A stretch of DNA of 64,000 nt from Proteiniborus ethanoligenes (lineage in GTDB: Bacteria; Bacillota; Clostridia; Tissierellales; Proteiniboraceae), in assembly GCF_900107485.1 (NCBI RefSeq), contig NZ_FNQE01000018.1:1-64000 (forward strand), read 5' to 3'. Below, one piece after another: positions 21,347-33,587 of this stretch. The position numbers were made by a program, and so were the translations under genes. Each line of letters opens with the position of its first letter. Within the stretch, counting starts at the first letter, position 1. Under the pieces are notes generated by a model, which was not told the DNA's origin, made no database searches, and was given only the letters and a program-made list of their open reading frames with translations.

Positions 21347-21405
21347 AATAAATACAATCTATCTAAAGACAGAATTTGAATTCTGTTTTTAGGTCTGTAT
21401 TTATT
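21347..21405 (+). promoter_or_regulatory. Structured leader with terminator-like hairpin before speD
   Basis: An outer stem AATAAATACA (21347-21356) pairs perfectly with TGTATTTATT (21396-21405). Inside, ACAGAATT and AATTCTGT form a hairpin directly followed by five T. The inner hairpin looks like an intrinsic terminator and may attenuate the operon. Confidence 0.55.
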
Positions 21406-21441
21406 AAGCAATATAAACAAATTAAAAAAGAAAGGTTGCTG

Positions 21442-22260
21442 ATGTTAGGGTTGAAAGAAAAAATAACACTTTACGGTTTTAATAACCTTACAAAGACACT
21501 TAGTTTCAACATTTATGATGTCTGCTATGCAAAAACCGAAAGAGAGAAACAGGATTATATTGCATATATTGATGAGCAGTATAATTCTGAGCGTTTAACA
21601 AAAATTTTGTGCGATGTGACTGAAATAATTGGAGCACATGTGTTAAATATTTCGAAACAGGATTATGATCCTCAGGGAGCAAGTGTTACTATTTTAATAA
21701 CTGAAGAAGCTATTCCAGTTCATGTAATTGATCCAACCTGTAATAAAGGTAAATTGACTTATGCTTCTTTAAAAGATAGTGTTGTAGGGCACTTAGACAA
21801 AAGTCATGTAACAGTGCATACCTATCCTGAATTTCACCCTGATAACGATATAACAACTTTTAGAGTTGATATTGACGTATCCACTTGTGGTAGAATTTCG
21901 CCACTTAACGCTTTGGATTATCTTATATCAAGCTTTGATTCAGATATAATAACTATTGACTATCGTGTAAGAGGATTTACAAGAGATGTTGAAGGTAATA
22001 AATACTATATGGATCACGATATTACTTCAATTCAAAATTATATAGATGCAAAAACCTTACGAAGATATGATGCAATTGATGTTAATGTTTATCAATCAAA
22101 TATTTTTCATACTAAAATGATGCTGAACGAAATAAATCTAAACAACTATTTATTTAACAAAGACCCCTATGAATTATCTCCAGATGAACGTCGTGATATT
22201 AGAGATAAAATCTCTCGTGAAATGATTGAGATTTTTTATGGAATGAATGTTTACAGGTAA
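21442..22260 (+). CDS. speD: S-adenosylmethionine decarboxylase proenzyme (Escherichia coli SpeD type)
   Basis: 272 residues from ATG 21442 (GAAAGG upstream); a longer frame starting at 21376 would run through the leader hairpin. Closely follows the enterobacterial class: [55 protein letters not shown], self-cleavage site DVSTCG where Ser becomes the pyruvoyl group, [27 protein letters not shown]. It supplies decarboxylated AdoMet for spermidine. The long E. coli-type form, not the short Bacillus SpeH form, is notable in this lineage. Confidence 0.95.
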
Positions 22261-22278
22261 TATGGAGGGGATGATAAA

Positions 22279-23733
22279 ATGACTAAGCTTATGCATGAAT
22301 CAGCACCTATCCATGATGCATTAATCCAGTATAGAAATACTAGAATAGTATCCTTTGACGTTCCAGGTCATAAGCAGGGAAAAGGCAATACTATGCTTAG
22401 AGATTTTCTAGGAGATAAATGTCTTTCTGTAGATGTTAATTCAATGAAACCACTTGATAATTTAAACCACCCTACCTCTGTAATTAAAGAAGCAGAAGAA
22501 TTAGCAGCAGATGCTTTTAATTGTGACAGAGCTTTTTTCATGGTAGGTGGTACATCTTCTTCTGTACAAGGGATGATTATGAGCGTTTGTAAAGAAGGAG
22601 ATAAAATAATTATGCCTAGAAATGTTCACAGAAGTGCAATAAGTGCCATTATTTTAAGTGGTTCTATTCCTGTATATGTTAGCCCTGGAATAAGCAAAAA
22701 TCTTGGAATACCTCTAGGTATGTCTTTAAAGGATGTGGAGAAAGCAATCAATGAAAATCCTGATGCTAAGGCTGTTTTCGTAAACAATCCCACATACTAT
22801 GGTATTTGCTCAGACTTAAAAAGCATTATAGACCTTGCACACAAGAACAATATGCTAGTCCTTGTAGATGAAGCCCATGGAACACATTTTTATTTTGGAG
22901 AAAATCTCCCTCCTGCGGCCATGCATTTAGGTGCAGATATGTCTGCAGTTAGCGTCCATAAAACTGGGGGGTCACTTACTCAAAGCTCCCTTTTGTTAGC
23001 AAACACAGAAAGAGTAAATCCTGATTATGTAAGGACTATAATTAATTTAACACAAACCACTAGCGGCTCTTATCTTTTACTTTCTTCCCTAGATATTGCT
23101 CGAAAAAACTTGGCACTAAACGGCAGGGAAATTTTTTCAAGGATATTAGAGCTTTCAGAATATGCAAGAAATGAAATCAACTCAATAGGTGGATATTATG
23201 CTTTTTCAAGGGAAATCATAAATGGTGATAGTATTTATGATTTCGATAGGACCAAGCTTAGTGTCCATACCCTAGATATAGGTCTTGCTGGCATAGAGGT
23301 ATACGATATGCTCCGTGATGATTATTCTATACAGTTAGAGTTTGGAGATTTAGCTAATTTTCTAGCAATTATTTCTGTAGGTGATACTTATTTTGCAATC
23401 GAAAGACTTGTTTCGGCCCTTGCAGAAATTAAACGTACTCATGCTAAAAATAAGGCTAATATGATTGATCATGAATATATTTCTCCAGTTGTAAAGGTTT
23501 CACCTAAGACAGCATTTTACTCAAAAAAGAAAAAAGTGGAGTTGAAAAATAGCATAGGTCAGATTAGCGGAGAATCTATAATGTGCTATCCGCCAGGAAT
23601 ACCGATCTTAGCTCCAGGAGAAATGATAACCAAGGAGTCCATTGATTATATTTTATATTCAAAGGAAAAGGGATGTTTGCTTACTGGAGTAGAGGATATG
23701 AATATAGAACATATAAATATTTTAGATGCATAG
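22279..23733 (+). CDS. speA: Arginine decarboxylase (Orn/Lys/Arg decarboxylase, Bacillus SpeA type)
   Basis: 484 residues, matching the about 490-residue Bacillus-type enzyme. PLP fold type I decarboxylase: FDVPGHKQGKG near 30, FMVGGTSSSVQGMI, NPTYYG, VDEAHGTHF and the PLP-binding Lys in SVHKTGGSLTQSS; C-terminal domain with CYPPGIPILAPGE. Lysine or ornithine decarboxylase are alternatives by fold, but the downstream agmatinase makes arginine the likely substrate. Ribosome binding site GGAGGGG; it lies 18 bases after speD. Confidence 0.9.
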   Translation: MTKLMHESAPIHDALIQYRNTRIVSFDVPGHKQGKGNTMLRDFLGDKCLSVDVNSMKPLDNLNHPTSVIKEAEELAADAFNCDRAFFMVGGTSSSVQGMIMSVCKEGDKIIMPRNVHRSAISAIILSGSIPVYVSPGISKNLGIPLGMSLKDVEKAINENPDAKAVFVNNPTYYGICSDLKSIIDLAHKNNMLVLVDEAHGTHFYFGENLPPAAMHLGADMSAVSVHKTGGSLTQSSLLLANTERVNPDYVRTIINLTQTTSGSYLLLSSLDIARKNLALNGREIFSRILELSEYARNEINSIGGYYAFSREIINGDSIYDFDRTKLSVHTLDIGLAGIEVYDMLRDDYSIQLEFGDLANFLAIISVGDTYFAIERLVSALAEIKRTHAKNKANMIDHEYISPVVKVSPKTAFYSKKKKVELKNSIGQISGESIMCYPPGIPILAPGEMITKESIDYILYSKEKGCLLTGVEDMNIEHINILDA

Positions 23734-23746
23734 GAAGGTGTAGTTT

Positions 23747-24601
23747 ATGGAATTATGGTATACTGAGGAACATACTGAAAATGTAAGGTTTTCAATTAAA
23801 ATCAAAAAACAGCTCTATAGTGCTAATAGTCCCTATCAGAAAATAGATGTTTTTGACTCAGAAGAATTCGGTAGATTTTTTACTCTTGATGGACTTATGA
23901 TGGTAACTGAAAAGGATGAATTTATCTATCATGATATGATTGTTCATGTTCCTATGGCAGCAAAGCCAGACACTAAAAAAGTACTTGTAATTGGTGGTGG
24001 CGACGGGGGAACAGTTAGAGAATTAACTCGTTACAGCTCTATTGAGGAAATCCATATGGTTGAAATAGATAAAATGGTCGTAGACGTATGTAGAGAATTT
24101 TTGCCGCAAACTGCTCTAAAGCTTGATGACCCAAGAGTTTCTCTTTATTTTGAAGATGGCCTTAAATTTGTTCGTTCAAGGCAAAATGAATACGACCTTA
24201 TAATTGTAGATTCTACTGACCCTTTTGGTCCTGGTGAAGGTCTTTTTACAAAAGAGTTTTATGGTAATTGCTTTAAAGCACTTAGCGAAGAAGGCATTTT
24301 AGTAAATCAACATGAAAGTCCATATTACCAAAGCTATGCTAACGCAATGAAAAGAGCTCACAAGAGAATAAAGGAATATTTCCCTAATTGTAGAGTATAT
24401 CAAGCTCATATTCCAACATATCCTTCTGGACATTGGCTTTTTGGTTTTGCATCTAAAAAGGTTGACCCTATACTTGACCTAGATGCAGAAAAATGGAACT
24501 CTCTAGGAATTGAAACCAAGTATTATAATACAGAACTTCACAAAGGCTCATTTGCATTGCCAAATTATGTAAAGGAAATGATAGAGTATGAAAACAAATA
24601 A
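23747..24601 (+). CDS. speE: Spermidine synthase
   Basis: 284 residues, usual length. Motifs: LWYTEEHTENVRFSIKIKK at the start, LDGLMMVTEKDEFIYHDMIVH, VLVIGGGDGGTVRELTRY (AdoMet pocket), and the catalytic region DLIIVDSTDPFGPGEGLF. It transfers aminopropyl from decarboxylated AdoMet to putrescine. It follows speA by 13 bases. Confidence 0.97.
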   Translation: MELWYTEEHTENVRFSIKIKKQLYSANSPYQKIDVFDSEEFGRFFTLDGLMMVTEKDEFIYHDMIVHVPMAAKPDTKKVLVIGGGDGGTVRELTRYSSIEEIHMVEIDKMVVDVCREFLPQTALKLDDPRVSLYFEDGLKFVRSRQNEYDLIIVDSTDPFGPGEGLFTKEFYGNCFKALSEEGILVNQHESPYYQSYANAMKRAHKRIKEYFPNCRVYQAHIPTYPSGHWLFGFASKKVDPILDLDAEKWNSLGIETKYYNTELHKGSFALPNYVKEMIEYENK

Positions 24602-25439
24602 AAACATACAAAACTTTATCGGTTGTGACAAGGAATACGAAGAAGCAGATATTGTTCTTTTTGGTGCTCCTTACGATGGCACTACCTCCTATAGACCAGG
24701 AACAAGATTTGCAGCTAAAGCCATGAGAATGGAAAGTAGCCTTGGCTTTGAAACCTATAGTCCTTATCAAGACAAGGATTTAACCCAAATATCTGTATTT
24801 GATCATGGGGATTTAGTTCTTCCTTATGGAGGCCCTGAGCAGATTTTAGATATAATCTCCGATTTTACTAGGGATGTAATAAAAGATAATAAAATTCCTA
24901 TTATGATTGGAGGGGAGCATTTAGTTACTTTAGGTACTATTAGACCTATAGTTGAAAAATATCCTGATTTGCATATTATTCATTTTGATGCTCACACAGA
25001 TTTACGTCATGAGTTTTTTGACAAAGAGCTATCTCATGCAACTGTAATGAGGAGAGTTTGGGACCTTGTAGGAGACGGTAAAATATTTCAGATGGGCATT
25101 CGCTCAGGGGATAAAACAGAATTTGAATGGGCTAAGGAGCATTTGTATCAAAATAAATATAATTGTAATGATATAGATTATATTATAGAGAAAACGAAAG
25201 GCAAGCCTGTTTATGTAACTATTGATCTTGATGTATTGGACCCTTCTGTTTTTCCAGGCACTGGAACTCCTGAGCCTGGTGGAATAGATTTCACTACATT
25301 ATTAAACTGTATCTTGAAGATGTCAGAATTAAATATTGTAGGTGCAGATATTAATGAGCTATCTCCTCATTATGACCCTAGCGGTGCTTCCACTGCTGTA
25401 GCTATTAAAACATTGAGGGAATTGCTTTTAGTATTATAA
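24588..25439 (+). CDS. speB: Agmatinase
   Basis: 283 residues. Ureohydrolase signatures with dinuclear Mn ligands: MIGGEHLVTLGT, IIHFDAHTDLR, and VTIDLDVLDPSVFPGTGTPE; FGAPYDGTTSYRPGTRF near the N-terminus. It hydrolyses agmatine to putrescine and urea, linking SpeA to SpeE. The gene overlaps the speE end by 14 bases. Confidence 0.96.
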   Translation: MKTNKNIQNFIGCDKEYEEADIVLFGAPYDGTTSYRPGTRFAAKAMRMESSLGFETYSPYQDKDLTQISVFDHGDLVLPYGGPEQILDIISDFTRDVIKDNKIPIMIGGEHLVTLGTIRPIVEKYPDLHIIHFDAHTDLRHEFFDKELSHATVMRRVWDLVGDGKIFQMGIRSGDKTEFEWAKEHLYQNKYNCNDIDYIIEKTKGKPVYVTIDLDVLDPSVFPGTGTPEPGGIDFTTLLNCILKMSELNIVGADINELSPHYDPSGASTAVAIKTLRELLLVL

Positions 25440-25517: not shown

Positions 25518-26012
25518 TTATTTTAAAATCGTGAATTTTCCTATAATTGGAAGCTCCTTTTCTTTTCCCTGTGAAGCATTTATAATTCCCATTACAGCTA
25601 GAACAAAGAAAACTAAACCTATAAGTCCGAGGATTGGGCTTATAAACAACCCTAAACGCCATGAAATAGCAAGTAACATTTGTGTTACAATTGTATAAGC
25701 AACGCTATAGACAATCCCACATATGGCTAGAATCAAGCCTTGATTTGTATGGTATCTCGCAAATTTAGATTCTTTGGCTGCAAAAAGTGGGATTAATACT
25801 AAAATACCTATATATGCTAATATGGCCATAAGCTTATTTTGTTCTATATCACTAGCTTCATATGCTGCAGTATTTGTAGCCATATTCGCCCTAGAACTTT
25901 GTATGTTTTCTTCCATAGGCTGCGTGTCTTCTAAATAGGTGCTTGCTCCGCATCCTGGACAAAACTTTACTTCCTCGCTTAATTTTGTTCCACATTTTCC
26001 ACAGAAAGCCAT
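25518..26012 (-). CDS. Zinc-ribbon membrane protein, DUF4870-like
   Basis: 164 residues from ATG 26012, with AGGAGG eight bases upstream; the longer frame has no such site. N-terminal ribbon CGKCG and CPGCG, then a polar linker rich in N/T/A, then about four hydrophobic segments with ILAYIGILVLIPLFAAKES and KFARYHTNQGLIL, typical of the DUF4870/Tic20-like family. Function unknown. Zinc-ribbon plus membrane domains resemble the TM2 protein at 9.5 kb in design, not in sequence. Confidence 0.8.
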   Translation of the reverse strand: MAFCGKCGTKLSEEVKFCPGCGASTYLEDTQPMEENIQSSRANMATNTAAYEASDIEQNKLMAILAYIGILVLIPLFAAKESKFARYHTNQGLILAICGIVYSVAYTIVTQMLLAISWRLGLFISPILGLIGLVFFVLAVMGIINASQGKEKELPIIGKFTILK

Positions 26013-26068
26013 TATAATATCCTCCTTTAAATTAAATATTATTATTTTTGGACTTATTGCCTTATTTA

Positions 26069-26440
26069 CTATTGAATTGCCCTGCCACATAATGTACAAA
26101 AGCAATTTTCCTCTTCTATATATGTTCCACATTTTTTACATTTTCGAGTATTTTTAAGATTTTTCTTAATTTGTTTACGAGTCTTTAGTGCTGAGCATTC
26201 AACACATTCCATGACACTTTCATCGTAATGCTCATCACATATCCACTTCCCACATTTATGGCATTTATTAAAATATAAATATGCCACACTTTGTGCTTTT
26301 TGTAGAGCTTCTGTAAAGGATTCTGTTTTAATCTCTTCCGTTTCATAGCTTCTTTGGCAAAGATCACAGTAGAAAGTGAAACTGAATCCATCTTTTATGC
26401 GTTGAGTTACATACCTTTGTGTAAAAGCTTTATTCATCAC
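26069..26440 (-). CDS. Small multi-zinc-knuckle protein of unknown function
   Basis: 123 residues, no membrane segment. Five cysteine pairs are visible: CDLC, CHKC, CVEC, CKKC, CTLC, plus ICDEHY, so two or three zinc sites are likely. The N-terminus (TQRYVTQRIKDGFSFTFYCD) resembles clostridial zinc-ribbon hypothetical proteins. It lies upstream of the zinc-ribbon membrane protein with a 56-base gap and is probably co-transcribed with it. Confidence 0.7.
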   Translation of the reverse strand: MMNKAFTQRYVTQRIKDGFSFTFYCDLCQRSYETEEIKTESFTEALQKAQSVAYLYFNKCHKCGKWICDEHYDESVMECVECSALKTRKQIKKNLKNTRKCKKCGTYIEEENCFCTLCGRAIQ

Positions 26441-26631: not shown

Positions 26632-26650
26632 AATCACCCTTAGGGTGATT
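26632..26650. promoter_or_regulatory. Perfect 19-bp palindrome upstream of the binding-protein/LuxR operon
   Basis: AATCACCCTTAGGGTGATT has 9-bp arms around a single central base, an operator-like design, 41 bases before the solute-binding protein start. Confidence 0.5.
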
Positions 26651-26691: not shown

Positions 26692-28050
26692 ATGAGAAGA
26701 ACTGTGATTTTTCTCTTAACCTTAATTATTTTATCCTGCACTATACTTTTTGGGTGTAGTAACAAGGTTAGAATCGCTCCTGAAAATTATATTACTTTAA
26801 CTTTATGGCATAATTATGGTGGCATGATGCAGGCTACAATGGATGAGCTGATAGATGTTTTTAATGCTAGTATTGGAAAGGACAGAGGTATTATCGTAAA
26901 TGTAACTTCTATTAATAGCTCTTCAGCATTACAAGAAAAACTATTTATGGCGGCAAGTGATGAGCCAGGTGCCCCTAAGCTTCCTGACATTACTACATGC
27001 TATCCTAAAGTAGCTGTTGTTCTTGCAGAAAAAAATTTGCTTGTAGATTTAAATGAATATTTTTCAGATCATGAGCTTTCTAATTATGTAACATCTTTTG
27101 TAGAAGAAGGTAAAATCAATGACAAGCTATATGTGTTCCCAATTGCTAAATCAACAGAAGTTTTGTTCGTCAATCAAACGCTTTTTAACCGCTTTTCTAA
27201 TGCTACTGGCATAACCTTAGATAAACTTTCTACTTTTGAAGGAATTAGCGAAGTAGCTATGATTTACTATGACTGGACTGATGCTCAGACTCCTCATGTG
27301 CCAAATGACGGTAAAAGCTTTTATGCTGTAGATTCTCTATTCAATCTGGCTCAAGTAGGAATGAAGCAGCTTGGTAGCTCTTTTGTAGAAAATGAACAGT
27401 TGAACACATCAGGTGATACCTACAATCACATATATGAAACCATATTGAAACCTGCAGTAAAAGGAGGCTATGCTATTTATGATGGGTATTCCTCTGACCT
27501 GTCTAAAACTGGGGATATTGTTTGTTCCGCAGGATCTACTGCTGGCATATTATTTTATGGAGATACAATTACTTATGATGATAACACAATAGAAAAAGTC
27601 CAATATACTGTTCTGCCTTATCCTGTATTTAAAGGAGGAAAGCAAATAGCAATCCAACGAGGTGGAGGTATGTCGGTTATTAGCTCTAATAAGCAAAGAG
27701 AAAATGCAGCAGTCCTATTCCTTAAATGGTTTACTGAGGCAGAGCAAAATATGAAATTCATCTCTGAAACAGGTTACTTGCCCGTTACAAACTCTGCTTA
27801 TAGCACAATAATGAAAAACGAAGTTGATTCAATCCATAATGACAACATAAAAAAGCTACTGAACGTAGCAATTTCCATGCACAAGGACTATAATTTTTAT
27901 ATTCCACCTACCTTTCAAGCCTTCGATGCCCTTGGAGATGAATACGAAAAAGAGTTCAAATCTACAGCACGCTCTATTCGCAACAGGTATATTCAGTTAC
28001 TCAGCATCAAGGAGCCTAATGAAGCATATACCCAAGCTATAACTAAGTAA
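26692..28050 (+). CDS. Extracellular solute-binding lipoprotein (family 1-like) paired with a LuxR sensor
   Basis: 452 residues. Lipoprotein signal with ILFGC (Cys about 22). Family 1 (sugar-type) binding protein features: LTLWHNYGGMMQATMDELID, LPDITTCYPKVAVVLAEKNLLVDL, INDKLYVFPIAKSTEVLFVNQ, and the C-terminal AAVLFLKWFTEAEQNMKFIS then ETGYLPV. No permease or ATPase genes are nearby. The next gene, 38 bases on, is a membrane-anchored transcription factor, so it may act as a ligand receptor feeding the sensor rather than as a transporter part. Confidence 0.85.
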   Translation: MRRTVIFLLTLIILSCTILFGCSNKVRIAPENYITLTLWHNYGGMMQATMDELIDVFNASIGKDRGIIVNVTSINSSSALQEKLFMAASDEPGAPKLPDITTCYPKVAVVLAEKNLLVDLNEYFSDHELSNYVTSFVEEGKINDKLYVFPIAKSTEVLFVNQTLFNRFSNATGITLDKLSTFEGISEVAMIYYDWTDAQTPHVPNDGKSFYAVDSLFNLAQVGMKQLGSSFVENEQLNTSGDTYNHIYETILKPAVKGGYAIYDGYSSDLSKTGDIVCSAGSTAGILFYGDTITYDDNTIEKVQYTVLPYPVFKGGKQIAIQRGGGMSVISSNKQRENAAVLFLKWFTEAEQNMKFISETGYLPVTNSAYSTIMKNEVDSIHNDNIKKLLNVAISMHKDYNFYIPPTFQAFDALGDEYEKEFKSTARSIRNRYIQLLSIKEPNEAYTQAITK

Positions 28051-28088
28051 TTTATTAATAAACATATAACTCAATAGGAGATGTAAGC

Positions 28089-29693
28089 ATGAAAAGCAGG
28101 TTTAGCACTCTAAAAAAAGAATTAATTGAGACTAATAAAAACGGTATATCCCTTGAATTGCGTCTTATCTTCTTTTTTCTAATTTTTCTAATCACTATCA
28201 TGTTAGGCATATCCTTAATTTTAGTTTCTACAGGTGTTTTTGATGCATCTATGAAGGAAAATACTGCTTTATTTGAAAAGGAATTATCTCACATATATAA
28301 TAAAATATATGTTGATTTTAGTAATATATCTCTTAGCAGCATCTCTCTTGCGGAACAGCTATCTATGAGTATAGAAAACACCTTGTTAGAAAATGGGATT
28401 AGCCCTGATAAACTATCCCAAAATCCTCATCTCCTTAATACTATTCTCTCAAAAGAATATGATAATCTACTTCAAGGATTGAAAACCACAAAAAGTAGCG
28501 GTGTATTTTTAATACTTGACGCAACTATAAATCCTAATATTGAAGGATCTGAAGATTCAAGAGCAGGCTTGTTTTTAAAAAATTTAGAAGCAACTGCCGT
28601 TAATTCTGTTTATTATGATATTCGTTATATGCGTGGTCCTGCGGCTATTGGACGAAGTAATGGGATGACCTTTCTTCCACAATGGAAAATGGAGTTTGAC
28701 GTGAAGGATGCAGATTTTTTTACGGTTCCTATGTATACAGCTGAGAAATCAAATCTTTCCTTATCTCGATTATATTATTGGTGTCCTAAAACAAGGTTTG
28801 ACAATAGCGACAGTGCCATGCTATGTAGTGTGCCTCTTATAGCATCAGATGGAACAGTAATGGGCGTTGCAGGCTATGAGATTAGAACAATGCTCTTTAA
28901 ATTAATATATTCTCCTCATAGCTCCATTCAAAACCCTATCTTTTGTATGCTTTCTCCCTCTGACCATACTTATTTGTATATGGAGAAAGGAATGTTTGCT
29001 GGAAACTATTCAGTTAGCAATGCTATTCCAACTACTAATATGAAGGTTGTTTCTAAAGAAAATGAATTAAATCAATATATTTGTGCCAACAACAACTCTT
29101 ATTTTGGTCTTGATAAAAAGATACAGCTTTATTCAACGGGCTCACCCTATGAAGAAAAAGAATGGAGTGTTGTACTTTTAGTTCCCGAAGCAGATATGAA
29201 TGAATACATATCCGAACAAAATAAAACTATCATTTTATTGCTTGTTTTGCTTACCGCCATATGTATTATTCTTTCTGTTCTTATTAGTCATAAGTACCTT
29301 TATCCCGTTATTGAAGCATTTGACACAATAAAAATGAAAAAGCTATCAGAGCATAAGAAAACAAAAATCCCCGAAATTGATGACCTAATTGAATATTTAG
29401 AAAAACAAGATGATAAGGCAGAAAAAATTAATGTGGATTCTGCTGCTCATAATACAACCATGTTTGAAAATTTTGTAGAAAATATAAAAACTCTTTCATT
29501 TGCTGAAAAAGCCGTCTTTGATTTGTATTTAAAGGAGCATACAGCTCAAGAAATAGCAAAAATTCTTTGCCTATCTATTAATACAATCAAAACTCATAAT
29601 AAGAGGATATATATGAAGCTAAATGTGTCTTCTCGAAAAGAGCTTCTTGTCTATATACAGATGATGAATGAGCTAAATGAGAACACCTATTGA
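28089..29693 (+). CDS. Membrane-anchored LuxR-type transcriptional regulator with large extracellular sensor domain
   Basis: 534 residues. One membrane helix at about 24-48, an extracytoplasmic region about 50-380 of Cache-like layout (YYDIRYMRGPAAIG, SAMLCSVPLIASDGTVMGVAGYEI), a second helix about 383-405, a charged linker with coiled-coil character, then a C-terminal LuxR/GerE helix-turn-helix: LSFAEKAVFDLYLKEHTAQE, IAKILCLSINTIKTHNKRIY, MKLNVSSRKEL. It lacks kinase and receiver domains, so it would be a one-component transmembrane regulator. The target could be its own operon. Confidence 0.85.
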   Translation: MKSRFSTLKKELIETNKNGISLELRLIFFFLIFLITIMLGISLILVSTGVFDASMKENTALFEKELSHIYNKIYVDFSNISLSSISLAEQLSMSIENTLLENGISPDKLSQNPHLLNTILSKEYDNLLQGLKTTKSSGVFLILDATINPNIEGSEDSRAGLFLKNLEATAVNSVYYDIRYMRGPAAIGRSNGMTFLPQWKMEFDVKDADFFTVPMYTAEKSNLSLSRLYYWCPKTRFDNSDSAMLCSVPLIASDGTVMGVAGYEIRTMLFKLIYSPHSSIQNPIFCMLSPSDHTYLYMEKGMFAGNYSVSNAIPTTNMKVVSKENELNQYICANNNSYFGLDKKIQLYSTGSPYEEKEWSVVLLVPEADMNEYISEQNKTIILLLVLLTAICIILSVLISHKYLYPVIEAFDTIKMKKLSEHKKTKIPEIDDLIEYLEKQDDKAEKINVDSAAHNTTMFENFVENIKTLSFAEKAVFDLYLKEHTAQEIAKILCLSINTIKTHNKRIYMKLNVSSRKELLVYIQMMNELNENTY

Positions 29694-33269: not shown

Positions 33270-33587
33270 ATGGCAAAACATTATGAAGAACCATTCAAAA
33301 AGCAAATAGTAGCCTTGTATAATAACGGGAAGACTTTAGCAGACATTAATAGGGAATATGGAATAGCTAAATCTACAGTTAAAACATGGATTGAAAGATA
33401 TAATAATTCAGGTTCATTTGATGTTAATGACAATAGGACTGAAGAAGAAATAGAGTTAATTGAATTAAGGAAAAAGGTAAAACAGCTTGAAATGGAGAAT
33501 GATATTTTAAAGCAGGCAGCGTTAATACTAGGCAAAAAGAGAATTTACATGAATACAAAGAAAGTTCCCACATATTCCCGCAGATGA
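33270..33587 (+). pseudogene. IS3-family OrfA remnant, no OrfB
   Basis: 105 residues with GGGAGGA ribosome binding site. The N-terminal HTH_28/transposase_8 domain is intact ([30 protein letters not shown]) followed by the usual leucine zipper ([27 protein letters not shown]). IS3 elements then shift frame into OrfB, which holds the DDE integrase. Here the sequence diverges after ILGKK and no OrfB follows, so the element is broken and probably immobile. Confidence 0.8.

Follow-up and report, generated by a model that had tools for sequence, protein, structure and literature searches.

A putative one-component signalling unit of a solute-binding lipoprotein and a membrane-held LuxR-type regulator in Proteiniborus ethanoligenes, with relatives across the phylum

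In the NspS-MbaA systems of Vibrio cholerae and Sinorhizobium meliloti, a solute-binding protein (SBP) that has no transporter of its own docks on a membrane receptor with two helices, and the resulting output does not depend on transport (PMC8967002, PMC9993111). NspS-MbaA is the closest working analogue of the gene pair described here, which comes from a stretch of 64,000 nucleotides of Proteiniborus ethanoligenes DNA (the window); moreover, the GGDEF-EAL relatives of the pair that we found have the same domain order. The output of NspS-MbaA is turnover of c-di-GMP, whereas the window regulator carries a DNA-binding domain. The window SBP also differs, as it resembles sugar- and UgpB-type binding proteins, with no polyamine binder among the best 50 fold matches listed. 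In XylFII-LytS and CuaD-CuaSR of Clostridia, the SBP is needed for full sugar signalling (PMC10384115). There too, in Gram-positive anaerobes, the SBP gene adjoins a membrane sensor, but signalling there takes three components, the SBP being joined by a histidine kinase and a separate response regulator, whereas sensor and transcription factor are one protein in the window.

CadC and ToxR are membrane-held transcription factors acting directly on DNA (PMC6320335, PMC5430869), and the window regulator is likewise membrane-integrated and one-component. Unlike CadC and ToxR, in which an N-terminal winged HTH precedes one transmembrane (TM) helix, it has no N-terminal cytoplasmic Trans_reg_C domain followed by a single TM segment; instead, it combines two TM helices, a dCache domain, a C-terminal LuxR HTH and a cognate SBP. 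With LuxR/NarL regulators (GerE, VraR, NarL) it shares the GerE-type HTH and an inverted, heptamer-like predicted site with a short spacer, but it has no autoinducer-binding domain and no receiver in the same protein as a two-component response regulator would, and its input would come through the membrane. Transcription factors are absent from a 2022 survey of SBP-stimulated receptors, which comprises chemoreceptors, sensor kinases, diguanylate cyclases/phosphodiesterases and Ser/Thr kinases (PMC9602780); for this reason we place the pair among the SBP-coupled receptors as a variant. As in that class, an SBP without dedicated permease or ATPase lies adjacent, and an extracytoplasmic domain is held between two TM helices. 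In a literature search of partial coverage, no earlier description of an SBP coupled to a LuxR domain in one membrane regulator was found. If our reading is true, the pair adds the shortest SBP-receptor route, leading from outside ligand to binding protein, membrane protein and DNA.

An earlier note on this DNA had described a sugar-type binding lipoprotein and, 38 bases downstream, a two-helix regulator with about 330 extracellular residues and a C-terminal LuxR domain without kinase or receiver, with no transporter genes alongside. Both reading frames, the gap between them and each of these properties were recovered in our analysis, and the pair consists of the following parts:

26692..28050, + strand: solute-binding lipoprotein (SBP), 452 aa, MBP/UgpB-like fold, lipobox-like sequence, Cys22
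28089..29693, + strand: membrane-spanning one-component regulator, 534 aa, with TM1, dCache ectodomain, TM2, HAMP-like linker and LuxR HTH
28233..29222, + strand: extracytoplasmic dCache-fold sensor domain, about residues 49-378, between the two TM helices
29295..29438, + strand: HAMP-like juxtamembrane linker, about residues 403-450, from the family alignment
29484..29666, + strand: LuxR/GerE DNA-binding domain, about residues 466-526, recognition helix LSINTIKTH

Both genes are present in a single copy in the host genome. The SBP matched Pfam SBP_bac_8 (E 6.9e-23) and SBP_bac_1 (E 1e-9), and its N-terminus carries the lipobox-like ILFGC ending at Cys22. In the regulator, two hydrophobic segments (about residues 17-56 and 376-409) enclose some 330 residues. 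The structure model (pLDDT 81) comprises a dCache ectodomain (residues 47-379) and a helical linker; the ectodomain aligned with the ligand-binding domains of PctA, Tlp1, TlpQ and a Roseburia uracil chemoreceptor at VIA-align Z of 15-18. A Cache match was not found for the window regulator in Pfam; relatives L027, L158 and L171 matched MCP-like_PDC_1 above cut-off. Within the linker, P406 and E429-I430 are invariant across the family alignment, and relative L026 gave a HAMP match (PF00672, 2e-4, under cut-off) at this position. The GerE match reached E 9.9e-11 (41.6 bits against a curated cut-off of 23.5), while no Response_reg or kinase domain was found in the domain search.

The AlphaFold2 model of the SBP (pLDDT 91.6) aligned with dinucleotide-, UgpB- and maltooligosaccharide-binding proteins at VIA Z of 31-35 over ~350-365 residues, and its best 50 fold matches listed were sugar, glycerophosphodiester and dinucleotide binders; a carbohydrate-like ligand is probable. 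The pair is flanked by polyamine-type genes upstream and by clpX, clpP and tig downstream. The polyamine-type cluster (21376-25439, just 5' of the pair) comprises, by resemblance, speD-like, ornithine/arginine decarboxylase-like, spermidine synthase (speE) and agmatinase (speB-like) genes. Given this cluster and the sensing of polyamines by NspS, a polyamine ligand was considered, but it is not favoured because of the fold matches and because L024 was the only one of the inspected pair loci to show such a genomic link. Apart from L024, speD-/speE-like genes also occur near palindrome sites in L085 and L087.

To the left of the SBP gene lies a putative operator, followed by a divergent transcription unit:

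26633..26649, no strand: predicted operator, a perfect palindrome (ATCACCC-TTA-GGGTGAT) located 42 bp upstream of the SBP start codon
26069..26440, - strand: divergent Zn-ribbon protein, 123 aa, probable target, with the palindrome 192 bp from its start
25518..26132, - strand: Zn-ribbon and DUF4870 membrane protein, 204 aa, probable target, next gene of the divergent unit (DUF4870 8.7e-6)

The palindrome is the sole perfect site in its own genome. We surveyed ~1,000 genomes and collected 92 sensor loci, 86 of them scorable; the sensor was detected in 19 of 249 genomes of the same order (at 1e-15) and, with a profile at 1e-20 and all outputs counted, in 44 of 391 class genomes and 21 of 398 phylum genomes sampled. 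Of 39 loci with the recognition helix SINT[IV]KTH, 37 had the palindrome upstream of the pair when up to two mismatches were allowed (L114 and L136 being the exceptions), compared with none of 15 loci with other helices and none of 20 with GGDEF, EAL or kinase outputs. Fisher's test for this association (37/39 vs 0/35) gave 8e-19, which is an upper limit on significance and overstates independence, since the co-occurrence that connects palindrome and HTH was scored in related sequences. The helix rule does not hold strictly, as f39 (L290; helix SANTLKTH) has a palindrome, located downstream of the pair instead of before the SBP, 27 bp upstream of the Zn-ribbon gene start and in front of relatives of both window divergent genes. 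Many loci contain additional same-orientation half-sites at +23 and +34/35 bp (38 vs 3 in shuffled sequence). In the order, 28 perfect palindromes were found in 11 of 249 genomes (reversed control: 0). Among 26 pair-bearing genomes outside the order or near it, 25 had one to five perfect sites (control: 0), partly by construction, as most were chosen for holding the pair.

The cell envelope is the common theme of genes beside the predicted operator. Across the phylum, small DUF4870 membrane proteins adjoin perfect sites in L022, L049, L052, L101, L174, L175, L178, L180, L196, L274, L275, L286 and L290. Other recurrent neighbours are DUF6591 and other lipoproteins, NAGPA phosphodiester glycosidase, a CAP protein, and surface (S-layer) proteins with SLH domains (362, 1312 and 1609 aa). 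Genes for surface proteins are probably switched on or off by an outside molecule via the pair. A promoter scan downstream of the operator scored no better on average than shuffled sequence over all loci (mean 8.56 vs 8.28). In L024, L025, L050, L174, L175 and L180, TTGGAA-17-TATAAT puts the start site about 72-136 bp beyond the operator centre, an arrangement hinting at activation rather than repression.

Co-occurrence cannot name the binder of the palindrome, and one may ask if the signalling pair is real while the palindrome belongs to another, soluble regulator of the pair and envelope genes, with the LuxR domain acting elsewhere. This would agree with several perfect sites located far from the pair in f19, as well as with the single perfect site of G188 (L100, 3990-4006), which precedes an unrelated operon of two-component and ABC-transporter genes in a genome where the pair was not detected. 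However, perfect sites in the order are, G188 apart, limited to genomes that have a pair of the SINT type, or in which the contig ends at its SBP or target gene. Furthermore, upstream sites vanish when either the recognition helix or the output differs, and an inverted repeat of ~17 bp suits a dimer of LuxR type. We regard a separate soluble regulator as unlikely, and prefer the LuxR domain of the pair as the binder.

As for the pair itself, 84 of the 86 scorable loci have the SBP gene immediately before the sensor gene, in the same orientation; six of the 92 loci run off the contig edge before any SBP gene. In a few loci the reading frame of the SBP or the sensor is split, and the set holds at least one duplicate genome (G943, the UBA5500 record of L022). 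The SBP profile matched in 30 of 248 genomes of the order, where all full-length members at <=1e-90 adjoin a sensor, contig-end members (G044, G197) excepted; this reverse search also added three GGDEF-EAL members that had escaped the initial sensor search. Of the other SBPs examined, those nearest to the clade (E about 1e-31 to 1e-35) are encoded in operons with ABC permeases. Pairwise distances of SBPs and sensors correlated with r = 0.91 over 70 pairs and r = 0.94 over 49 LuxR pairs, a correlation that partly reflects shared species history. In genomes with two systems that differ in output, the two SBPs were mostly 32-37% identical, vs 60-83% identity with the SBPs of same-output relatives; one kinase/GGDEF-EAL pair of systems was less clear-cut (46% vs 47%).

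The same front end of SBP and dCache sensor was detected with i) GGDEF output (L026, L167), ii) PAS-GGDEF-EAL or GGDEF-EAL output (L062, L170), and iii) HisKA-HATPase-receiver output (L155, L158, L171). With the LuxR form included, it represents a modular part already joined in nature to four kinds of output: LuxR, GGDEF, GGDEF-EAL and HisKA-HATPase-REC. That the SBP is kept while the output changes argues that it belongs to the input. In L151/L171 and L158, the same SBP front end goes with very large sensors of ~1,315 aa, single polypeptides that comprise dCache, GGDEF-like, HisKA, HATPase and receiver domains.

It is generally known that orphan SBPs can use a shared permease. Accordingly, the window SBP might still serve an ABC importer encoded elsewhere, the regulator being merely adjacent and sensing via its own dCache domain. 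The SBP does keep the sugar-type fold of ABC binding proteins, and direct binding of small ligands is the usual mode of dCache domains. On the other hand, its operon holds no cognate permease genes, no importer permease was found at any pair locus (only a few unrelated ABC ATPases lie nearby), and an SBP otherwise so constantly placed beside the sensor across the phylum, confined within the order to sensor pairs and persisting through swaps of output, is not what an importer component would lead one to expect. In addition, frameshift or deletion has disrupted the sensor at both loci that lack the SBP gene (L122, L173). We therefore consider service to a distant importer improbable, and a dedicated signalling role of the SBP preferable. 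L122 (1001-1700) and L173 appear to be decaying systems, with the SBP gene lost or absent and the sensor frame broken; the palindrome persists in L122.

The idea that the palindrome acts at the RNA level, as a hairpin or terminator, instead of as a DNA operator, for which its 7-10 bp stem followed by some T residues and the placement of one f19 site (L087) between two converging genes might speak, was rejected as very improbable, because the arm letters are the same across the phylum and changes fall mainly in the central three positions, unlike in a structure-conserved hairpin, the loops would be of one or three bases, many sites lie between divergent genes, and same-strand half-sites recur at fixed spacing.

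Taken together, the comparison of genomes points to regular pairing of the two genes, their separation from transporters, their co-variation, the swapping of outputs and a link between recognition helix and operator. From this, the two genes probably form one signalling unit, namely an SBP-coupled, membrane-held one-component regulator with a predicted operator and envelope targets. The earlier note had suggested such a unit, to be doubted if the pair were not conserved or if the SBP partnered with transporter genes elsewhere; neither was observed, degraded sensors and contig ends apart. Its account of the SBP/regulator pair stands, but was incomplete, as it included neither the operator and the usual divergent envelope gene nor the non-transcriptional outputs of the same front end; the predicted dCache fold is likewise an addition to it. 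More broadly, it is likely that the pair belongs to a phylum-wide signalling cassette, with a dedicated SBP and a dCache sensor as the constant input and outputs that can be exchanged; its main form would be a transmembrane transcription factor triggered by the SBP, together with a predicted operator and a regulon of envelope genes.

According to the mechanism we propose, the SBP, located on the outer face of the membrane, would bind a probably carbohydrate-like ligand and, once loaded, dock on the dCache ectodomain of its partner. The change would pass via the two TM helices and the HAMP-like linker to the LuxR HTH, which would stay at the membrane. A dimer of this HTH may then bind the palindrome TAATCACCC-N3-GGGTGATTA, to which many relatives add same-strand half-sites 23 and 34-35 bp downstream. 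In this way, it could control its own operon together with the divergent Zn-ribbon/DUF4870 genes; relatives would also govern a small envelope regulon.

Two minor observations can be added. The f4 pairs (L055, L056, L057, L059, L060, L061, L063) have divergent helices (KSTAKHH, KESTVRFH) and no palindrome, and mostly adjoin SPFH/SHOCT and Zn-ribbon genes; three g66 loci have a common upstream inverted repeat, AGAGTAAC...GTTGCTCT, which may be a different operator. In the window, a small ORF resembling the IS3-type transposase OrfA is located at 33270-33587, between tig and a helicase-like gene.
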